Assembly: GCF_040529065.1 (NCBI RefSeq)
Contig: NZ_CP132343.1
Coordinates: forward strand, 2,914,001 to 2,978,000
DNA length: 64,000 nt
Source of the DNA: Xanthomonas sacchari
GTDB lineage: Bacteria; Pseudomonadota; Gammaproteobacteria; Xanthomonadales; Xanthomonadaceae
Direction: 5' to 3'
Under the pieces are notes generated by a model, which saw only the letters and a list, made by a program, of their open reading frames with translations, ran no database searches and had not been told where the DNA came from. This document shows, in pieces, positions 29,825-35,937 of the stretch. How positions within the stretch are numbered: the first letter of the stretch is position 1; every line of letters starts with the position of its first letter. A program made the translations under genes and the position numbers.

Positions 29825-30535
29825 TCACCCACAACGGCTGGCCGGCCCCTGACGGTCGCGCTCGGCACGACGCGCACTGGCCCTGCCGCCTTCCAGCGGC
29901 GACAGGCCTTCGCGGATCGCATAGCGCGTCAATTGCGCGATGCTCTGCATGCCCAGCTTGAGCATGATGTGCTCGCGATGGGTGCCGATGGTCTTGACGC
30001 TGATGTGCAGGCGCGCGGCGATCTCCTTGGTCGACAGCCCCTCGGACAGCAACTGCACGATCTCGCGTTCGCGCGAGGTCAGCAGCGTGTAGGCCGAGAC
30101 CGCATCGCCGGGCGGACAGCGGTACTCGCTGACCAGCGACTGCGACAGCTGAGGACTGATGTACAACTGGTCGTTGCCGACCTGCTGGATCGCGCGCAGC
30201 AATTCGTGGAAGGTGCTGTTGCGCGCCAGGTAGCCCTTGGCGCCGGCATCGATGACCGCGCGCACGTTGGCCGCGGCGTCGGAGGCGGCGATGCAGATCG
30301 CCTTGCTGCGCGGGCTGCGCTGCAGCAGCCGGCGGGTGGCCTCGATACCGTTGAGGCCCGGCAGCATCACGTCCATCAGCACGACGTCCGGCTGCCGTCG
30401 GGTCACCAGTTGCACGCACTCCAATCCGTCGACCGCGTGGCCGACCACTTCGATGCCCGACGTGTTGTTCAACAGGGCGACCATGCCCTCCAGCACGATG
30501 CTGCGTTCGGCGGCAATCACGATACGTGTGTTCAT
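29825..30535 (-). CDS. NarL/FixJ-type response regulator with degenerate receiver
   Basis: A 236-residue regulator with an N-terminal receiver and a C-terminal LuxR-type helix-turn-helix (LTSREREIVQLLSEGLSTKE onwards, about residues 152-210). The phosphoacceptor Asp55 is kept in VVLMDVMLPGLNG. However, the acidic pair that binds magnesium is Ala9-Glu10, the switch Ser/Thr is Ala83, and the conserved Lys is Arg105 (GYLARNS). Phosphorylation may therefore be weak or absent. No histidine kinase gene is near. A basic tail of about 20 residues follows the HTH. It lies downstream of the DUF2589/GH108 operon but is separated by 493 bases. Confidence 0.92.
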   Translation of the reverse strand: MNTRIVIAAERSIVLEGMVALLNNTSGIEVVGHAVDGLECVQLVTRRQPDVVLMDVMLPGLNGIEATRRLLQRSPRSKAICIAASDAAANVRAVIDAGAKGYLARNSTFHELLRAIQQVGNDQLYISPQLSQSLVSEYRCPPGDAVSAYTLLTSREREIVQLLSEGLSTKEIAARLHISVKTIGTHREHIMLKLGMQSIAQLTRYAIREGLSPLEGGRASARRAERDRQGPASRCG

Positions 30536-31028: not shown

Positions 31029-32069
31029 TCAGTCGGACGACGCTGATGGGGGCGGCAGCCGCGCGGCTTCCACCTGCAGCATCGCGCGGGCGAACTCGGC
31101 GAGACGTTGCTGGACCGCCGCTGGCGGCGTGCCCGCCTCGATCGACTGTTGCAGCGCCATCAGTTGCGCGGCCAGTTCGCCCTGCCAGCGCATGCGCTCG
31201 GTGTCGTTGCTGGCACGCTGTACCTCGAGCGAGGCCTGCGCCTGCGCCGAGGTGTCGCCGCGCACCAGCGTTTCCATGGCATCGACCAGGCGTTGCAGCA
31301 GGCGGTACACCGCCGTGGCGGAAAAGCCACCCAGCATCGCCAGGGTCGGCTTGCCGAAGCTGCGCATGCTGCCGGTCTCGAACAGGTCCGGCGGCAGCAC
31401 TTCGACCAGGATCAGGCCGGCGATCAGGCCCAGGATCATGCGCGCGCCATAGGAGGCGTCGTACTTGGGGTCGTAGCTGGCGTCGGCGACGTAGCGGTGC
31501 ACCTGGAACAGCGAGGAGAACGAGGCGCCCAGGCCGGCGCAGAACAACAGAAACAGCGCGTTCCACAGCAGCACGCTGCCGGACGAATCCAGGAATCCCA
31601 GGCGCACGTTGTCCGCACTGACTTTGCTGGACAACGCCGTGGCCACCACCAGGAACAGGAACACGAGCGAGGTGGCAGTGAGCGCGCGCACCAGCGGCAG
31701 CGGACCGAGGAAGATCGCCCAGTGCGGGCGGCGGCGCTCGGCATCGAGCAGGAACACCGCCTGCGGTGTCGCCGGGCGGATCAGTTGCGCCAGCCGCCGA
31801 TGGGTCACCGCCAGTTCGTGCGCGCGCGGCTCGATGTCGCTGTCGCCGGCCGCGCCCTCCGCTGAACCGACGCTCACCAGCACCGACAGGCGCGCGATCA
31901 GTTCCGGCGGCACCGCCAAGCCGTGCTCCAGCGCATAGCGCGCCATCGCTTCGCACTCGGCGAGCAACTGCGGCAGGATGCCCGGCGGCGGCAACCGCGG
32001 CACGCCACTGCGGGCCGCGGTCAGCCGGCGCCGCAACGCGCCGGCCAGTGTCTTGATCCAGACGTTCAT
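31029..32069 (-). CDS. multi-pass membrane protein in DUF2589/GH108 operon, unknown
   Basis: A 346-residue protein I do not recognise. Residues 1-125 are cytoplasmic-like and helical. Four membrane segments follow in the middle: about 128-150 (LVRALTATSLVFLFLVVATA), 170-192 (LLWNALFLLFCAGLGASF), 212-230 (RMILGLIAGLILVEVL) and 243-262 (LAMLGGFSATAVYRLLQRLV). A polar loop with VHRYVADASYDPKYDASYG lies between the second and third. The C-terminal 80 residues are helical and charged. It is the last gene of the operon, 48 bases after the secreted two-repeat protein. A pore or anchor role would fit but is not shown. Confidence 0.82.
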   Translation of the reverse strand: MNVWIKTLAGALRRRLTAARSGVPRLPPPGILPQLLAECEAMARYALEHGLAVPPELIARLSVLVSVGSAEGAAGDSDIEPRAHELAVTHRRLAQLIRPATPQAVFLLDAERRRPHWAIFLGPLPLVRALTATSLVFLFLVVATALSSKVSADNVRLGFLDSSGSVLLWNALFLLFCAGLGASFSSLFQVHRYVADASYDPKYDASYGARMILGLIAGLILVEVLPPDLFETGSMRSFGKPTLAMLGGFSATAVYRLLQRLVDAMETLVRGDTSAQAQASLEVQRASNDTERMRWQGELAAQLMALQQSIEAGTPPAAVQQRLAEFARAMLQVEAARLPPPSASSD

Positions 32070-32117
32070 TGCTTCACTCCTGGACGGAAACGACGGCCGG
32101 CGCGCATGCGCCACGGA

Positions 32118-32915
32118 TTACCGGCTGGCGGACACGCGCTTCAGCGGCACGACGTGTGGGGACTTCCCGGCCTTGCCGGCGATCTGGAGACTGACGCCCC
32201 CGTCCGGCGTTGCACGCAAGACCAGACGGCCGTCGCTCAGTTCCGCGCAGTGCCCCTGGTCGTTCATGTCCAGCGAATACACCGCCGCATCCGCGCGCAT
32301 GCCAACGTAGCGCGCCTGCACCTTGCAGCCCCAGGGCGTGCCGTAGTGCAGCTCCACCGTGGGACTGCCTGGCGCCTGCGGGCTGGACGAGACCGTCACC
32401 TCCAGGGTCGGCTTTTCGAGGATCTTTCCGCCGGAGTCCAGCCCCTGCCATGTGCCCGTCAGCGGACTGGGCCGACCAGGATCGGTGTGCAGCACCACCA
32501 GCAGGGCCTTACCGTCGACGAACAGCCGCAGGTCGTCGCCACTGCGCTGCACGCGCAGCGGCTTGCCCATCAACTTGTCGCAGTAGGCTCCCCCGTTGAT
32601 CGAGTCCAGGACGAAGCCGCCAGCCCTCTGCGACTTGACCAGCGCGTTGCAGTTCAGCGGCGAGCCGAAGGCGAGCCTGGCTTGGCCGCTGCCCTGGATC
32701 AGGCGCAGCGCGACCAGATTCTCCGCACCGGGCGGTTGTGCCTCCAGCGTCAGGGTGCCGCTCCACTGGCCAGCCGGCAGCGCCTCGGCGTTGGCCGCCG
32801 CGCCCGGCTTGGCCGCAGTGCCCGCCTGCGGCGCGGCGTCGGCAGCGGATGGCAAGGCCAGGCACAGCGCCAGCCAAAGCGGGAAATGTGCAACACCACG
32901 CGAACGGATACGCAT
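32118..32915 (-). CDS. secreted two-repeat protein with paired cysteines, unknown
   Basis: A 265-residue exported protein. The signal peptide is clear (FPLWLALCLALPSAADA, ending near residue 28). The mature part consists of two related halves of about 100 residues. The first has LAFGSPLNC ... FVLDSINGGAYC ... LRVQRSGDDLRLFVDG; the second has LHYGTPWGC ... YSLDMNDQGHC ... LVLRATPDGGVSLQIAG. Each half keeps two cysteines at equal spacing, consistent with one disulfide per repeat in the periplasm. A GAGGAG site precedes the ATG. In a cluster with a muramidase it could be a periplasmic binding or inhibitor protein; that is inference. Confidence 0.82.
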   Translation of the reverse strand: MRIRSRGVAHFPLWLALCLALPSAADAAPQAGTAAKPGAAANAEALPAGQWSGTLTLEAQPPGAENLVALRLIQGSGQARLAFGSPLNCNALVKSQRAGGFVLDSINGGAYCDKLMGKPLRVQRSGDDLRLFVDGKALLVVLHTDPGRPSPLTGTWQGLDSGGKILEKPTLEVTVSSSPQAPGSPTVELHYGTPWGCKVQARYVGMRADAAVYSLDMNDQGHCAELSDGRLVLRATPDGGVSLQIAGKAGKSPHVVPLKRVSASR

Positions 32916-32958
32916 GCGACTCTCCTCTGGAAATACGAAAGGGAAACGAACGGTGCGG

Positions 32959-33147
32959 TCAGTGCAGGCCGAACCAGACCAGCGCCACCACGGCCGCCGC
33001 CAGCAACAGGGCCGCAAGCAGCCACAGCGCCCGCCGTCGACGCCGGCGCAAGCGCTGCGCGCGGGCCAGCGAGCGCAGGTCGATGTGCAGCTCTCGGCAC
33101 CACAGGTCGGTGTCGTGCCGCGACAGCAGAAAGCCGTGTCTACGCAT
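32959..33147 (-). CDS. 62-residue tail-anchored membrane protein, unknown
   Basis: A very small protein with a basic N-terminal part, an RRRRRR cluster before residue 40, and a single C-terminal membrane segment (LWLLAALLLAAAVVALVWFG, about 41-60). Its ATG lies inside the end of the upstream gene, overlapping by eight bases, which favours real coupled translation. The topology would leave the basic domain in the cytoplasm. Size and layout recall small holin- or anchor-like proteins but no homology is recognised. Confidence 0.65.
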   Translation of the reverse strand: MRRHGFLLSRHDTDLWCRELHIDLRSLARAQRLRRRRRRALWLLAALLLAAAVVALVWFGLH

Positions 33148-33598
33148 GCGCCGTCTCCTGGTCGGGGTCGTGCGGGGTGGCCGGTTCGGACAGGTGCCAC
33201 AGCTTCAGTTGCTGCCCGTCGAACAGCACCTCGCCGACCGGGGTATGGGTGCCGCGGAACAGGATCTGCAGGCGGTGGCCGGGCCGGCGCGGCCTTCGCG
33301 GCGACACCTGCAGCAGCAGGCGCGGCGCCTCGTCCGGCATCTCCACCACCTCCAGCTCCACATCGAAGGACAGGGCCAGTTCGCCGATCTGCGGCAGTTG
33401 CCACGCACGCAGTTCCCACAGCGGGATCTGCAACGCCGGCGGCTCGGCCTCCTCCGTCACCACCTGCACGGTCTCGGCGGCGCCGAAGCATGCGCGCAGC
33501 GCCCGCTCGTGGCGCGCCCGGCAGCGCCGCTGCGCATCCAGCAAGGCCGCCGACAATCCCTGCAGCAGCAGGTCGAAGTCGCAACGCAGCCTGGCCAT
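33140..33598 (-). CDS. divergent DUF2589-like protein
   Basis: A 152-residue cytoplasmic protein with no obvious annotation, but it shares the pattern of the two DUF2589-type proteins upstream. The N-terminal helix DLLLQGLSAALLDAQRR parallels DLIEALAGAVIEAQDR in the 192-residue protein. The strand segment IPLWELRAWQLPQIGELALS with FDVELE parallels APLLPLVSTNVLRIKDVEIS with FDAQLG. I therefore read it as a third, shorter paralogue with a polar C-terminal tail. The start at 33598 overlaps the upstream stop (TGATG). Confidence 0.75.
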   Translation of the reverse strand: MARLRCDFDLLLQGLSAALLDAQRRCRARHERALRACFGAAETVQVVTEEAEPPALQIPLWELRAWQLPQIGELALSFDVELEVVEMPDEAPRLLLQVSPRRPRRPGHRLQILFRGTHTPVGEVLFDGQQLKLWHLSEPATPHDPDQETAHA

Positions 33599-33858
33599 CA
33601 GTCGTCCGTCAGCCAGCCGGGCTTGCGCGGGAAGCCCACGTGGTAGCACAGCCACTGCATCACCACCTGGTGCTCGCCGATCTGCAGCACGGCGAAATTC
33701 TTCTCGGTGCCGATGATCGCACCCTTGGGCGAATCGCTCAGACATCGGTTGAGCAGGGCCCGGGCCGCTTCGATCTGCTCGGGCGTTTGCATCTGCGTCG
33801 GGTTGTCGCTACCGACCACGACCCGCTTGACGAACTTGACTTCAGTGAGGTCGAACAT
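33598..33858 (-). CDS. 86-residue protein in DUF2589/GH108 operon, unknown
   Basis: A small cytoplasmic protein of mixed fold (MFDLTEVKFVKRVVVGSDNP at the N-terminus; hydrophobic strand FAVLQIGEHQVVMQWLCYHV in the C-terminal half; ends KPGWLTDD). There is no signal or membrane segment and no recognised family. It has a GGGGGA ribosome site, starts 46 bases after the 208-residue DUF2589 gene, and its stop overlaps the next ATG. Retention between two related paralogues suggests a shared complex. Confidence 0.78.
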   Translation of the reverse strand: MFDLTEVKFVKRVVVGSDNPTQMQTPEQIEAARALLNRCLSDSPKGAIIGTEKNFAVLQIGEHQVVMQWLCYHVGFPRKPGWLTDD

Positions 33859-33904
33859 GGTTGACGAGTCCCCCGACGAGATGGTTCAACGGATCGCTAG
33901 CGGA

Positions 33905-34531
33905 TTACGGGGTGACCGCAACCGGCTTGCCGACCTTGCGCGGGGCCACCGCGGTCTGCAGGATGTCCAGCACCCGCGCCAGACCTTCCGGCGGCCCTTT
34001 GTCCGCGGCATGCACCGAGACGTGGTACTTGGCCGAGTTGTCCGAGCTGCGCGTGTTCTCCTTGCTCGTGGCCACCGAGCCCTGGATGTGCACCTTGGCC
34101 TTGAACAGGCCGAAGCCGTATTCCACGTCCGCCGACATCGACGCCGACGCATCGGTCTTTTCCTTCGAGGAGAAGGACGACTTCACTTCCATGTCGAAGG
34201 TGACGTCCACGGTCTGGATGCTCAGGCTGGGCACGTTGACGATGGCCAGCAGCGGTACTTCCAGCTCGACCTCTTCCTCGGCGATGCCGCCGGCATTGTC
34301 CGGATCGTCGACCGGCCGCTTGAAGCGGAAGCTGGCGGTGCGGGTCGCGCCGGTGCCCTGCGGATCCTTGGGATCGGTCGGGGGCAGGAAGCCGATGACG
34401 CGGATGAAATCGGCGGTGGCGCGGGCCAGCTTGACCTGCGCGTCGCAGGCCGCATCCAGCGGTCCGCCGATCAGGTCGCCCATGGGCAGACCCTTGAATT
34501 GACTTGACATGTTGACGAGTTCGTCAGCCAT
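33905..34531 (-). CDS. DUF2589 domain-containing protein
   Basis: A 208-residue protein of the DUF2589 family, whose function is unknown. The N-terminal motif GDLIGGPLDAACDAQVKLAR leading to ADFIRVIGF is diagnostic. A beta-rich central domain with VPLLAIVNVPSLSIQTVDVT then FDMEVK follows, and the C-terminus has the segment PPEGLARVLDILQTAV. No signal peptide or membrane helix is present. It starts 12 bases after its 192-residue paralogue and has an AAGGAG site. It may form a structural or scaffold protein, which is inference from its beta-rich composition. Confidence 0.88.
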   Translation of the reverse strand: MADELVNMSSQFKGLPMGDLIGGPLDAACDAQVKLARATADFIRVIGFLPPTDPKDPQGTGATRTASFRFKRPVDDPDNAGGIAEEEVELEVPLLAIVNVPSLSIQTVDVTFDMEVKSSFSSKEKTDASASMSADVEYGFGLFKAKVHIQGSVATSKENTRSSDNSAKYHVSVHAADKGPPEGLARVLDILQTAVAPRKVGKPVAVTP

Positions 34532-34543
34532 TGCAGTGACTCC

Positions 34544-35122
34544 TTAGTTGGTGGGATTGGTTACATCGTCCGTGCCCGCGACGTCCGGCTTGTCGGCCAT
34601 GACCGTCTTGAACACGCCCTGCGTCTGCGCCAGATGGTTGAGCAATCTGGCCGCTCCGTCAGTCGGTTCGGTGCCTTCCACGCGCAACACGACGTGGACG
34701 GCACTCTGGCGCTGGCTCCGCGCGCTGGCGCTGGTATCCACGCGCACGCTGGAACGGGTGGCGGTGCGCTTGGCCTGCCAGGCCGCCTGCGGGCCGGGCG
34801 ATTCCGGCGCGAAGAAGCCGTCGGCGGACTGCAGGCCGCCGAGGTCGCCGAGCTGCGCATCGAAGCTGATCTCCACGTCCTTGATCCGCAGCACGTTGGT
34901 CGAGACCAGCGGCAGCAGCGGCGCGCGGTAGTAGTCCTCGTCGCCCTCGGCCGCCTGCGGGTGCTGCGACGGCAGGCGGATGATCACGCTCTTGGGCCGG
35001 TGGAACTCGTCGAAGTAGTCGCCGAGGTTGGCCATCTGGTGCTGCTCGATGCGGTCCTGCGCCTCGATCACCGCGCCGGCCAGCGCTTCGATCAGGTCGT
35101 TCAATGCGGTCGGTCCAGCCAT
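34544..35122 (-). CDS. DUF2589-like protein, second paralogue
   Basis: A 192-residue cytoplasmic protein related to the 208-residue DUF2589 protein beside it. Shared parts are the N-terminal helix LNDLIEALAGAVIEAQDRIE, the strand APLLPLVSTNVLRIKDVEIS with FDAQLG, and the C-terminal PTDGAARLLNHLAQTQ that mirrors PPEGLARVLDILQ. An additional DYFDEFHRPKSVIIRLPSQ segment lies between helix and barrel. The ribosome site GGAG precedes the start. It is second in the operon after the muramidase gene. Confidence 0.82.
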   Translation of the reverse strand: MAGPTALNDLIEALAGAVIEAQDRIEQHQMANLGDYFDEFHRPKSVIIRLPSQHPQAAEGDEDYYRAPLLPLVSTNVLRIKDVEISFDAQLGDLGGLQSADGFFAPESPGPQAAWQAKRTATRSSVRVDTSASARSQRQSAVHVVLRVEGTEPTDGAARLLNHLAQTQGVFKTVMADKPDVAGTDDVTNPTN

Positions 35123-35192
35123 GGTCGCTCCGGGAGAAGGAAGGCCACCGTCGGCGACGGCGGCGGATCGGCGGCGCGCGCCGGGCGCGCTC

Positions 35193-35217
35193 GCTCAGGT
35201 CAGCTCAGGTCAGGTCA
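35193..35217. repeat. short tandem repeat at the end of the GH108 gene
   Basis: Two exact copies of GCTCAGGTCA followed by GGTCA lie across the stop codon of the muramidase gene and into the 82-base gap. This is a small direct repeat only. Confidence 0.6.
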
Positions 35218-35744
35218 GGAAAGGAGTCGGTGCGCGCCAGCCAGCCCTTGAGGAACTTGCCCAGCGGCGGCTTGGCCGCGACCAGGCGCTGGTAGTAGTC
35301 GCGCCGGCCCTGCTTGTAGCGTGCGTACAGATCGCGCTGGTCGGCGGCCTTCAGCGCCGCCAGGGTGGCCGAACCGAACTTGCCGTCCTCCGGCAGCTTC
35401 AGCGCCGGCGTCTGCGCGTTGAGCACGCGCTGCAGCAGCTTGATGGCGTTGTTGCCGGCGTTGACCTGGAAGTCGAACAGGATGTTGGCCAGCGGCTGCA
35501 GCGCGATCTCGTCGCCATGCACCGCATTCCAGTAGCAGGTCTTGTAGATCACCCCGGCCTGCGCGTCGGTGAGCGCACGCAGATTGTCAAGGGTCGGCTC
35601 CAGTTGCAGCAGGCTTTTGGCGTACAGGCGAAACGTGGCCATGGTGACGCCCTTGTTGGTGGCACCGCCCGGGTCCACCGGATCGTTGACGAAGCCACCC
35701 TCGTGCTTGAGCAGGGTCGGAAAGAATGCGTTGAAGTCGGCCAT
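35205..35744 (-). CDS. GH108 family muramidase with peptidoglycan-binding domain
   Basis: A 179-residue lysozyme-like enzyme of glycoside hydrolase family 108 (ZliS type), predicted to cut the glycan chain of peptidoglycan. The catalytic Glu15 lies in KHEGGFVNDPVDPGGATNKG, the family hallmark. The C-terminal half has a PG-binding type 3 domain (LLQRVLNAQ ... LPEDGKFGSATLAALKA). There is no signal peptide, so it needs a holin, lysis or secretion route to reach the wall. It has a GGAGG site, is the first gene of the operon, and is divergent from the carbonic anhydrase gene across 193 bases. No phage structural genes are near. Confidence 0.93.
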   Translation of the reverse strand: MADFNAFFPTLLKHEGGFVNDPVDPGGATNKGVTMATFRLYAKSLLQLEPTLDNLRALTDAQAGVIYKTCYWNAVHGDEIALQPLANILFDFQVNAGNNAIKLLQRVLNAQTPALKLPEDGKFGSATLAALKAADQRDLYARYKQGRRDYYQRLVAAKPPLGKFLKGWLARTDSFPDLT

Positions 35745-35937
35745 GGGATCCTCCGCTGATGCCCGGTGTGGGCGTGGAGGAAGTCTGCGCAGCGGCCCGC
35801 GTCGGCGGGATCGGCAAAAGCCCGATCCGGCGGCGCCTGCGCACTGAGCCGCCGCGCGCATCCGCAAGCCAGGCATGCAGGCGCTGCATGGGCGCGGGCC
35901 GCGCGCCGGCCGCGGGCTTCTGGGATAATGGCCGGCA

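Follow-up and report, generated by a model that had tools for sequence, protein, structure and literature searches.

A co-inherited cluster of GH108 muramidase and DUF2589 genes in Xanthomonas sacchari, a possible endolysin-dependent release cassette

Introduction

What would a muramidase of the phage endolysin type, lacking a signal sequence, do in a bacterial gene cluster beside seven proteins that match no phage family? The question is raised by a minus-strand cluster in a 64,000-nucleotide stretch of Xanthomonas sacchari DNA (contig NZ_CP132343.1, positions 2,914,001 to 2,978,000; the whole stretch is called the window below), which combines mur, the predicted muramidase gene, with dufA and dufB of the DUF2589 family, with small, exported and membrane proteins, and with a response regulator (RR). 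The literature searched (mostly without subscription papers) gave no described function for DUF2589, in keeping with a preliminary description of this DNA, and no earlier description of an association between DUF2589 and wall enzymes. The family occurs sparsely in a wide range of bacterial phyla, on plasmids and in a few phages, and its pairing with endolysin-type enzymes offers a first testable role, the hypothesis being release or attack through the envelope. We report that the nine genes are inherited as a block within the genus and that unrelated endolysin-type enzymes accompany DUF2589 elsewhere, and we tentatively favour reading the cluster as a cassette for regulated, endolysin-dependent release that resembles a type 10 secretion system and whose likely cargo is a DUF2589 complex.

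Results

Organisation of the cluster

Eight minus-strand open reading frames were seen at 31029-35744, with gaps of 82, 12 and 46 bases and overlaps, as first described; the eight-gene operon then proposed stands as a list of genes and falls short as a unit, of which the response regulator is a ninth member. The features are as follows.

35205..35744, minus strand: mur, predicted GH108 muramidase without signal sequence, with PG_binding_3 domain and Glu15 (Pfam, PHROG, PDB, hydropathy)
34544..35122, minus strand: dufA, DUF2589 protein of 192 residues (Pfam PF11655, 97 bits)
33905..34531, minus strand: dufB, DUF2589 protein of 208 residues (Pfam PF11655, 170 bits)
33598..33858, minus strand: p86, small protein without Pfam match (tblastn)
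33140..33598, minus strand: p201, probably 152 residues, possible distant DUF2589-like protein (overlap with p86; weak hhalign alignment)
32959..33147, minus strand: p62, 62 residues, one C-terminal transmembrane segment, candidate holin or anchor (hydropathy)
32118..32915, minus strand: sec, two-repeat protein with cysteine pairs, probably exported, fast evolving (signal peptide by eye; substitution rates)
31029..32069, minus strand: mem, membrane protein with multiple transmembrane segments (hydropathy; class-draw search)
29825..30535, minus strand: RR, LuxR/NarL-type response regulator, ninth gene (NCBIfam, collinearity)
35810..35826, minus strand: inverted repeat ATCGG-N7-CCGAT upstream of mur, candidate operator (alignment)

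Among the eight proteins, mur, dufA and dufB were the only ones to exceed a Pfam cut-off, p86, p201, p62, sec and mem having no match, and a hydropathy scan found no transmembrane segment in mur, dufA, dufB, p86 or p201. The product of mur is by sequence prediction a GH108 muramidase without a signal sequence, as originally described: it scored 90.1 bits against Glyco_hydro_108 (Pfam cut-off 21.2) and 49 bits against PG_binding_3, its GH108 domain carries the N-terminal Glu15, and it matched the PHROG endolysin family phrog_315 with 144 bits, the one PHROG match among the eight. Its PDB relatives include Sen1395 (6v3z), a TtsA homologue (E 3e-9), and against the NCBIfam holin-associated muramidase model it reached 98 bits, below the 240-bit cut-off.

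DufA (97.5 bits) and DufB (169.5 bits) are clear members of DUF2589 (Pfam cut-off 23 bits), and the genome holds no further DUF2589 gene. The product of p201 aligned with the DUF2589 profile in register and weakly (hhalign E 0.09, probability 0.6%), so that two of the three DUF2589-like paralogues initially claimed are sure and the third is possible. As listed, with 201 residues, p201 overlaps p86 in another frame over about 50 codons; ATG 33598, which shares one base with the p86 stop and yields a protein of 152 residues, is probably its start. An island reading from guanine-plus-cytosine content was dropped, the cluster (68.2%) not being unusual beside the window (69.5%).

Inheritance within the genus

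Across a sample of 20 genomes of the genus, all nine genes were present in 10 (the window and nine relatives), missing at the site in eight and decayed in two, G011 and G017, which bear remnants. The eight genes and the response regulator stand in identical order in the 10 intact genomes, the exceptions to intactness being one mem copy with an in-frame stop and one p62 match of only 27 residues, and the GH108 enzyme is common to all 10 (82-97% identical). The block always lies between the same two neighbours, a carbonic-anhydrase-like and a PaiB-like gene (named by eye), and in the eight block-free genomes these outer neighbours are 147-217 bases apart in six and 679 and 1172 bases apart in two. 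At E 1e-60 none of the 10 genomes lacking an intact cluster yielded the response regulator, and in nine of them no DUF2589 gene was present anywhere in the genome. Since the response regulator is present or absent together with the other eight genes, the unit is one of nine genes, and its all-or-nothing inheritance at one site supports a single functional unit, as had been proposed for the smaller set; the dufA-dufB-p86 core found in seven distant loci (below) also upholds that proposal. The remnants suggest that the block has been lost from genomes rather than recently gained.

DUF2589 loci in other genomes

DUF2589 is patchily distributed: a class draw gave hits in 2 of 368 other genomes, a phylum draw in 8 of 368 others and a draw around a Streptomyces in 0 of 365 others. 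A scan of genome contigs gave 143 relatives, from which 80 loci were kept. Two layouts are common, DUF2589-C1-C3 and DUF2589-C1-DUF2589 with a small zinc-ribbon-like protein (ribbon judged by eye); C1 is itself related to DUF2589 (hhalign probability 84%, E 7.7e-6), and a sequence profile search of the PDB returned chance-level matches for C1 and none for DUF2589. The third layout is that of the window, dufA-dufB-p86, at loci L177, L178, L179, L180, L189, L190 and L191. A tblastn search located p86 at 7 of 105 loci (39-60% identity), outside the window in dufA/dufB-type loci only, and in none of the phage contigs searched. The neighbourhood search thus recovered a recurring dufA-dufB-p86 core, common to close relatives in other proteobacteria and on plasmids, rather than scattered homologues.

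Wall enzymes were recognised by computed match at two of these p86 loci (L180, L189), and in the Vibrio plasmid p86 loci MltF-like proteins, 40% identical to each other, were seen by eye beside the core. The Smac51 (Deltaproteobacterium) plasmid has the order LuxR-type helix-turn-helix gene, dufA, dufB, p86, a small protein, two exported proteins, a RelE-like protein and an endolysin-type muramidase (helix-turn-helix, export and RelE labels by eye); as it repeats the layout of the window with another wall enzyme, it supports the release cassette. In a tree of 76 DUF2589 proteins, the window DufB fell in a group of eight (support 98/90) with L177, L178, L179, L180, L189 and the phage contigs L185 and L187, the places of L185, L187 and L179 being unsure because of long branches. 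The muramidase type of L189 and L194 sits on two separate branches. Enzyme labels required 11 changes for 11 groups (minimum 10; shuffled mean 11.8; as low in 39 of 200 shuffles), a test that says little, most labels being single rows and the Vibrio DufB not included.

Several other genes were observed near these loci. Mor-type transcription activators lie at L183:4493-4876 (by Pfam) and on the Vibrio plasmids at L190:8419-8838 and L191:10667-11035 (by similarity). Beside the dufA-dufB-p86 genes of L178 (10401-11261) is a 286-residue protein that contains an HHIIP motif, looks exported by eye and has no Pfam match. The Vibrio sp. 16 plasmid (L191:1-5276) has, near its DUF2589 pair, an annotated TcdA/TcdB-type glycosyltransferase-domain protein, an HlyD-family adaptor and a peptidase-domain ABC transporter. 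Proteins of about 240 residues, alike by eye, follow DUF2589-C1-C3 in Desulfotignum (L065:2636-3358, no Pfam match) and Geopsychrobacter (L095:2685-3401).

Wall enzymes and other hydrolases beside DUF2589

Nine wall-enzyme families were found by computed match in DUF2589 cassettes at ten independent loci: GH108 in the window, GH46 with PG_binding_1 (L110), Peptidase_M74 with PG_binding_1 (L064, Streptomyces), Amidase_2 (L072), a LysM enzyme (L058), Amidase_3 (L180), GH19 (L182), an M15-type endolysin (L184; no Pfam match, PDB E 4.5e-5, PHROG 91 bits) and an endolysin-type muramidase on the L189 plasmid and in L194, a 4-kb record labelled unverified bacteriophage (solved endolysins in the PDB, E 2e-34 to 2e-50). 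PHROG or the PDB ties the catalytic part to endolysins in seven of the nine families; PHROG lysis matches were obtained for GH108, GH19, M15, Amidase_3, Amidase_2 and the LysM enzyme, and GH46 and M74 matched PHROG only through their wall-binding domain. A further transglycosylase-like protein (L116) was recognised by eye and had no PDB match. Because unrelated endolysin-type enzymes occur in other DUF2589 cassettes, an envelope-acting cassette is supported as a prediction.

Other hydrolases were also found in this position. Patatin lies beside DUF2589 in Chryseobacterium (13 of 13 loci) and Crocosphaera, a T6SS_Tle1-like lipase (234 bits) lies beside the Amidase_3 of L180, and Peptidase_C1 (L060), a zincin (L082), M35 (L183), DUF922 (L181) and a penicillin-amidase piece (L069) occur elsewhere.

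A control was set up with 58 groups, one locus each, for which 42 same-strand adjacent genes were listed (15 scanned with Pfam at E 0.01, 26 at 1e-5, and the Chryseobacterium patatin against PADLOC only), together with 47 distant genes lying beyond 2.5 kb, one from each locus, at a limit of 1e-5. Among the matches listed, wall-enzyme or wall-binding domains occurred in 4 of the 42 adjacent genes, all four below E 1e-6, versus 0 of the 47 distant ones. Outside the control stood L194, eight loci of a separate draw, three of which have wall enzymes, and five plasmid records, one of which has a wall enzyme by computed match.

Two further genes were noted at these loci. In a KSB1 genome, the Amidase_2 gene is followed by a gene (L072:9960-10346) for a 128-residue protein with a strong transmembrane segment, holin-like by eye, for which no relative was found in viral_contigs. 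A LodA-type lysine oxidase (LodA_N, LodA_C; L110:354-2537) lies near the GH46-DUF2589 operon and adjoins a tyrosinase-like gene (by eye).

Phage links

A 100-kb viral contig (L185) carries a dufA-dufB pair among RecA-like, nuclease- and clamp-like genes, its DufB 55% identical to that of the window and its RecA-like gene matching 797 phage records; a 77-kb contig (L186) has the same match. In two small contigs (L187, L195), the pair lies between a fibre-like gene and tail-completion-, tail-tube- and tape-measure-like genes, labels given by eye only because matches were absent or weak: two L187 tail-module proteins had none in the phage records and the L195 fibre-like protein had one weak match. 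Some DUF2589 proteins (Burkholderia, Crocosphaera) carry Big_1 immunoglobulin-like tails, below the Pfam cut-off; domains of this type also decorate phage virions. The preliminary description saw no phage genes that would explain the muramidase. This holds for the eight proteins, among which the PHROG scan matched mur alone and gave no virion or packaging match that would mark a prophage remnant; the absence of a phage link is limited to these eight because DUF2589 pairs also occur in a few phage contigs.

Remaining proteins of the unit

By hydropathy, p62 has a single C-terminal transmembrane segment, in agreement with the tail anchor first assigned to it. The start of mem is probably ATG 32069; its earlier label of four-helix membrane protein is right as to the membrane, the simple hydropathy scan giving at least three transmembrane segments as the helix count. 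Outside the genus, mem was found in 0 of 368 other genomes (class draw), and it had no match in the PDB profile search. The sec gene starts at ATG 32915, and the N-terminus of its product is signal-peptide-like by eye, which fits the secreted two-repeat protein of the first description. A simple codon count between the window and nine relatives gave ratios of non-synonymous to synonymous substitution of 0.34-1.04 for sec versus 0.04-0.6 for the other eight genes; sec is the fastest evolving gene of the unit, a pattern that might suit an immunity or specificity protein. A PDB profile match of sec to CFA/I fimbrial fusions (E 0.0012) was not trusted. RR gave NCBIfam response-regulator matches under the equivalog cut-offs. 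The inverted repeat upstream of mur is shared by 10 species and the G017 remnant, with one site in the window versus 0.03 expected.

Discussion

A signal-less muramidase, a regulator and membrane proteins together have the look of Salmonella endolysin-dependent export, for which reason a release cassette is, tentatively, our first choice, ahead in turn of delivery of the hydrolase as a weapon, of chance neighbourhood, and of suicide or defence. All-or-nothing inheritance, the endolysin-like enzymes of other cassettes, the dufA-dufB pairs in phage contigs and the Big_1 tails also speak for it. Under this preferred reading, the regulator would activate the operon, perhaps by way of the inverted repeat ahead of mur; DufA, DufB, p86 and p201 would assemble into a cytoplasmic complex; p62, mem or both would pass the muramidase across the inner membrane in the manner of a holin; and the muramidase would open the peptidoglycan so that the DUF2589 complex could exit, with or without lysis. 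The sec protein might act in the periplasm as an inhibitor, a partner or an aid to exit. The holin role of p62 and mem, any spanin role and the cargo role of DUF2589 are candidate assignments.

Several observations weigh against release. No holin or spanin family was matched among the eight proteins in Pfam or PHROG (spanins diverge widely), and a transmembrane scan of same-strand genes in 12 other loci gave a plausible separate membrane gene in L072 only, short transmembrane-like frames in L180 and L053 overlapping larger genes. Phages seldom carry DUF2589 (1 of 50,697 records), its sole viral_contigs relative in one scan was a Chryseobacterium-like copy, and neither dufA nor dufB matched PHROG. 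The one machine acting on the envelope that was first envisaged gains from the unrelated enzymes elsewhere, yet in most of the 58 groups no wall enzyme could be recognised next to the module, and none was recognised at L177, L178 or L179 in the DNA fetched (L177 partly masked); these groups and these three of the seven p86 loci count against a fixed partnership. The control itself is borderline (one-sided Fisher p ~0.046), and lipases or proteases replace the wall enzyme in some cassettes, which fits a weapon better. To our knowledge, archaea lack murein. DUF2589-related genes exist in Archaeoglobus all the same, where the available part of PMC3949148 reports raised expression of AF0414-AF0417 on lactate; it was the one paper in the literature searched to mention DUF2589, and PF11655 was mentioned in none.

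A somewhat less probable reading is that DUF2589 with p86 and p201, or with C1 and C3 elsewhere, would build a phage-related particle or an envelope-crossing machine, whose exit or attack enzyme has been exchanged between unrelated hydrolase families. If true, this would define a class of its own among bacterial export or weapon systems.

It is rather unlikely, in our judgement, that the hydrolase is a weapon which the DUF2589 proteins carry, anchor or insert into rivals, with sec and perhaps mem protecting the producer. The variety of enzyme targets, taking in peptidoglycan, phospholipid (patatin, Tle1-like) and protein (Peptidase_C1, M35, zincin), would suit such a payload, and so would the fast evolution of sec. 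The enzyme is nevertheless constant within groups, as with GH108 in the 10 congeners and patatin in Chryseobacterium; the search of other loci turned up nothing related to sec; and no delivery machine was recognised, no search aimed at VgrG, Hcp or PAAR having been made.

Less likely again is a cell-internal role for DUF2589, apart from the envelope, with wall enzymes as chance or loose neighbours. The many groups without a recognised enzyme, the borderline control and the phage pair among RecA-, nuclease- and clamp-like genes speak for it; nine wall-enzyme families at ten independent loci, including three of the eight in the separate draw, and strict co-inheritance in the genus of the window speak against it. 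We regard as improbable a suicide or defence module whose hydrolase would lyse the cell on sensing infection or stress: patchy distribution, plasmid copies, nearby regulator genes and the resemblance of the Chryseobacterium patatin to a PADLOC phospholipase effector profile (200 bits) would fit it, yet PADLOC matched none of five window proteins scanned (p86, p62 and sec left out) nor two other core proteins, and DUF2589 pairs occur in phage contigs themselves.

Comparison with known systems

TtsA and ChiP of Salmonella are GH108 enzymes. According to the available parts of PMC13284979 and PMC6996933, these signal-less muramidases drive type 10 export and need a holin, the former source grouping them with coliphage N4 Gp61, and the available part of PMC10847048 describes regulators adjoining type 10-like lytic cassettes and a Yersinia cassette in which a holin, an endolysin and spanins lie beside a regulator and which works by lysis. 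With GH108 muramidases and phage endolysins, mur shares the domain, Glu15 and PG_binding_3; it differs in scoring below the holin-associated muramidase cut-off and in its PHROG-negative companions. With the type 10 systems (Salmonella TtsA and ChiH/ChiP, Serratia ChiWXYZ, Yersinia entomophaga), the window cassette shares a phage-type peptidoglycan hydrolase predicted to lack a signal sequence, and a regulator nearby. It differs in having no holin recognised by Pfam or PHROG, p62 and mem being the membrane proteins available, and no recognised counterpart to the spanins of the Serratia and Yersinia systems. It further differs in its conserved DUF2589/p86 core, which the available parts of the sources on those systems do not mention. 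We accordingly place the cluster as a variant of endolysin-dependent release in its presumed mode of working and do not assign it to the type 10 family; if this is right, a new core would be added to endolysin-dependent export.

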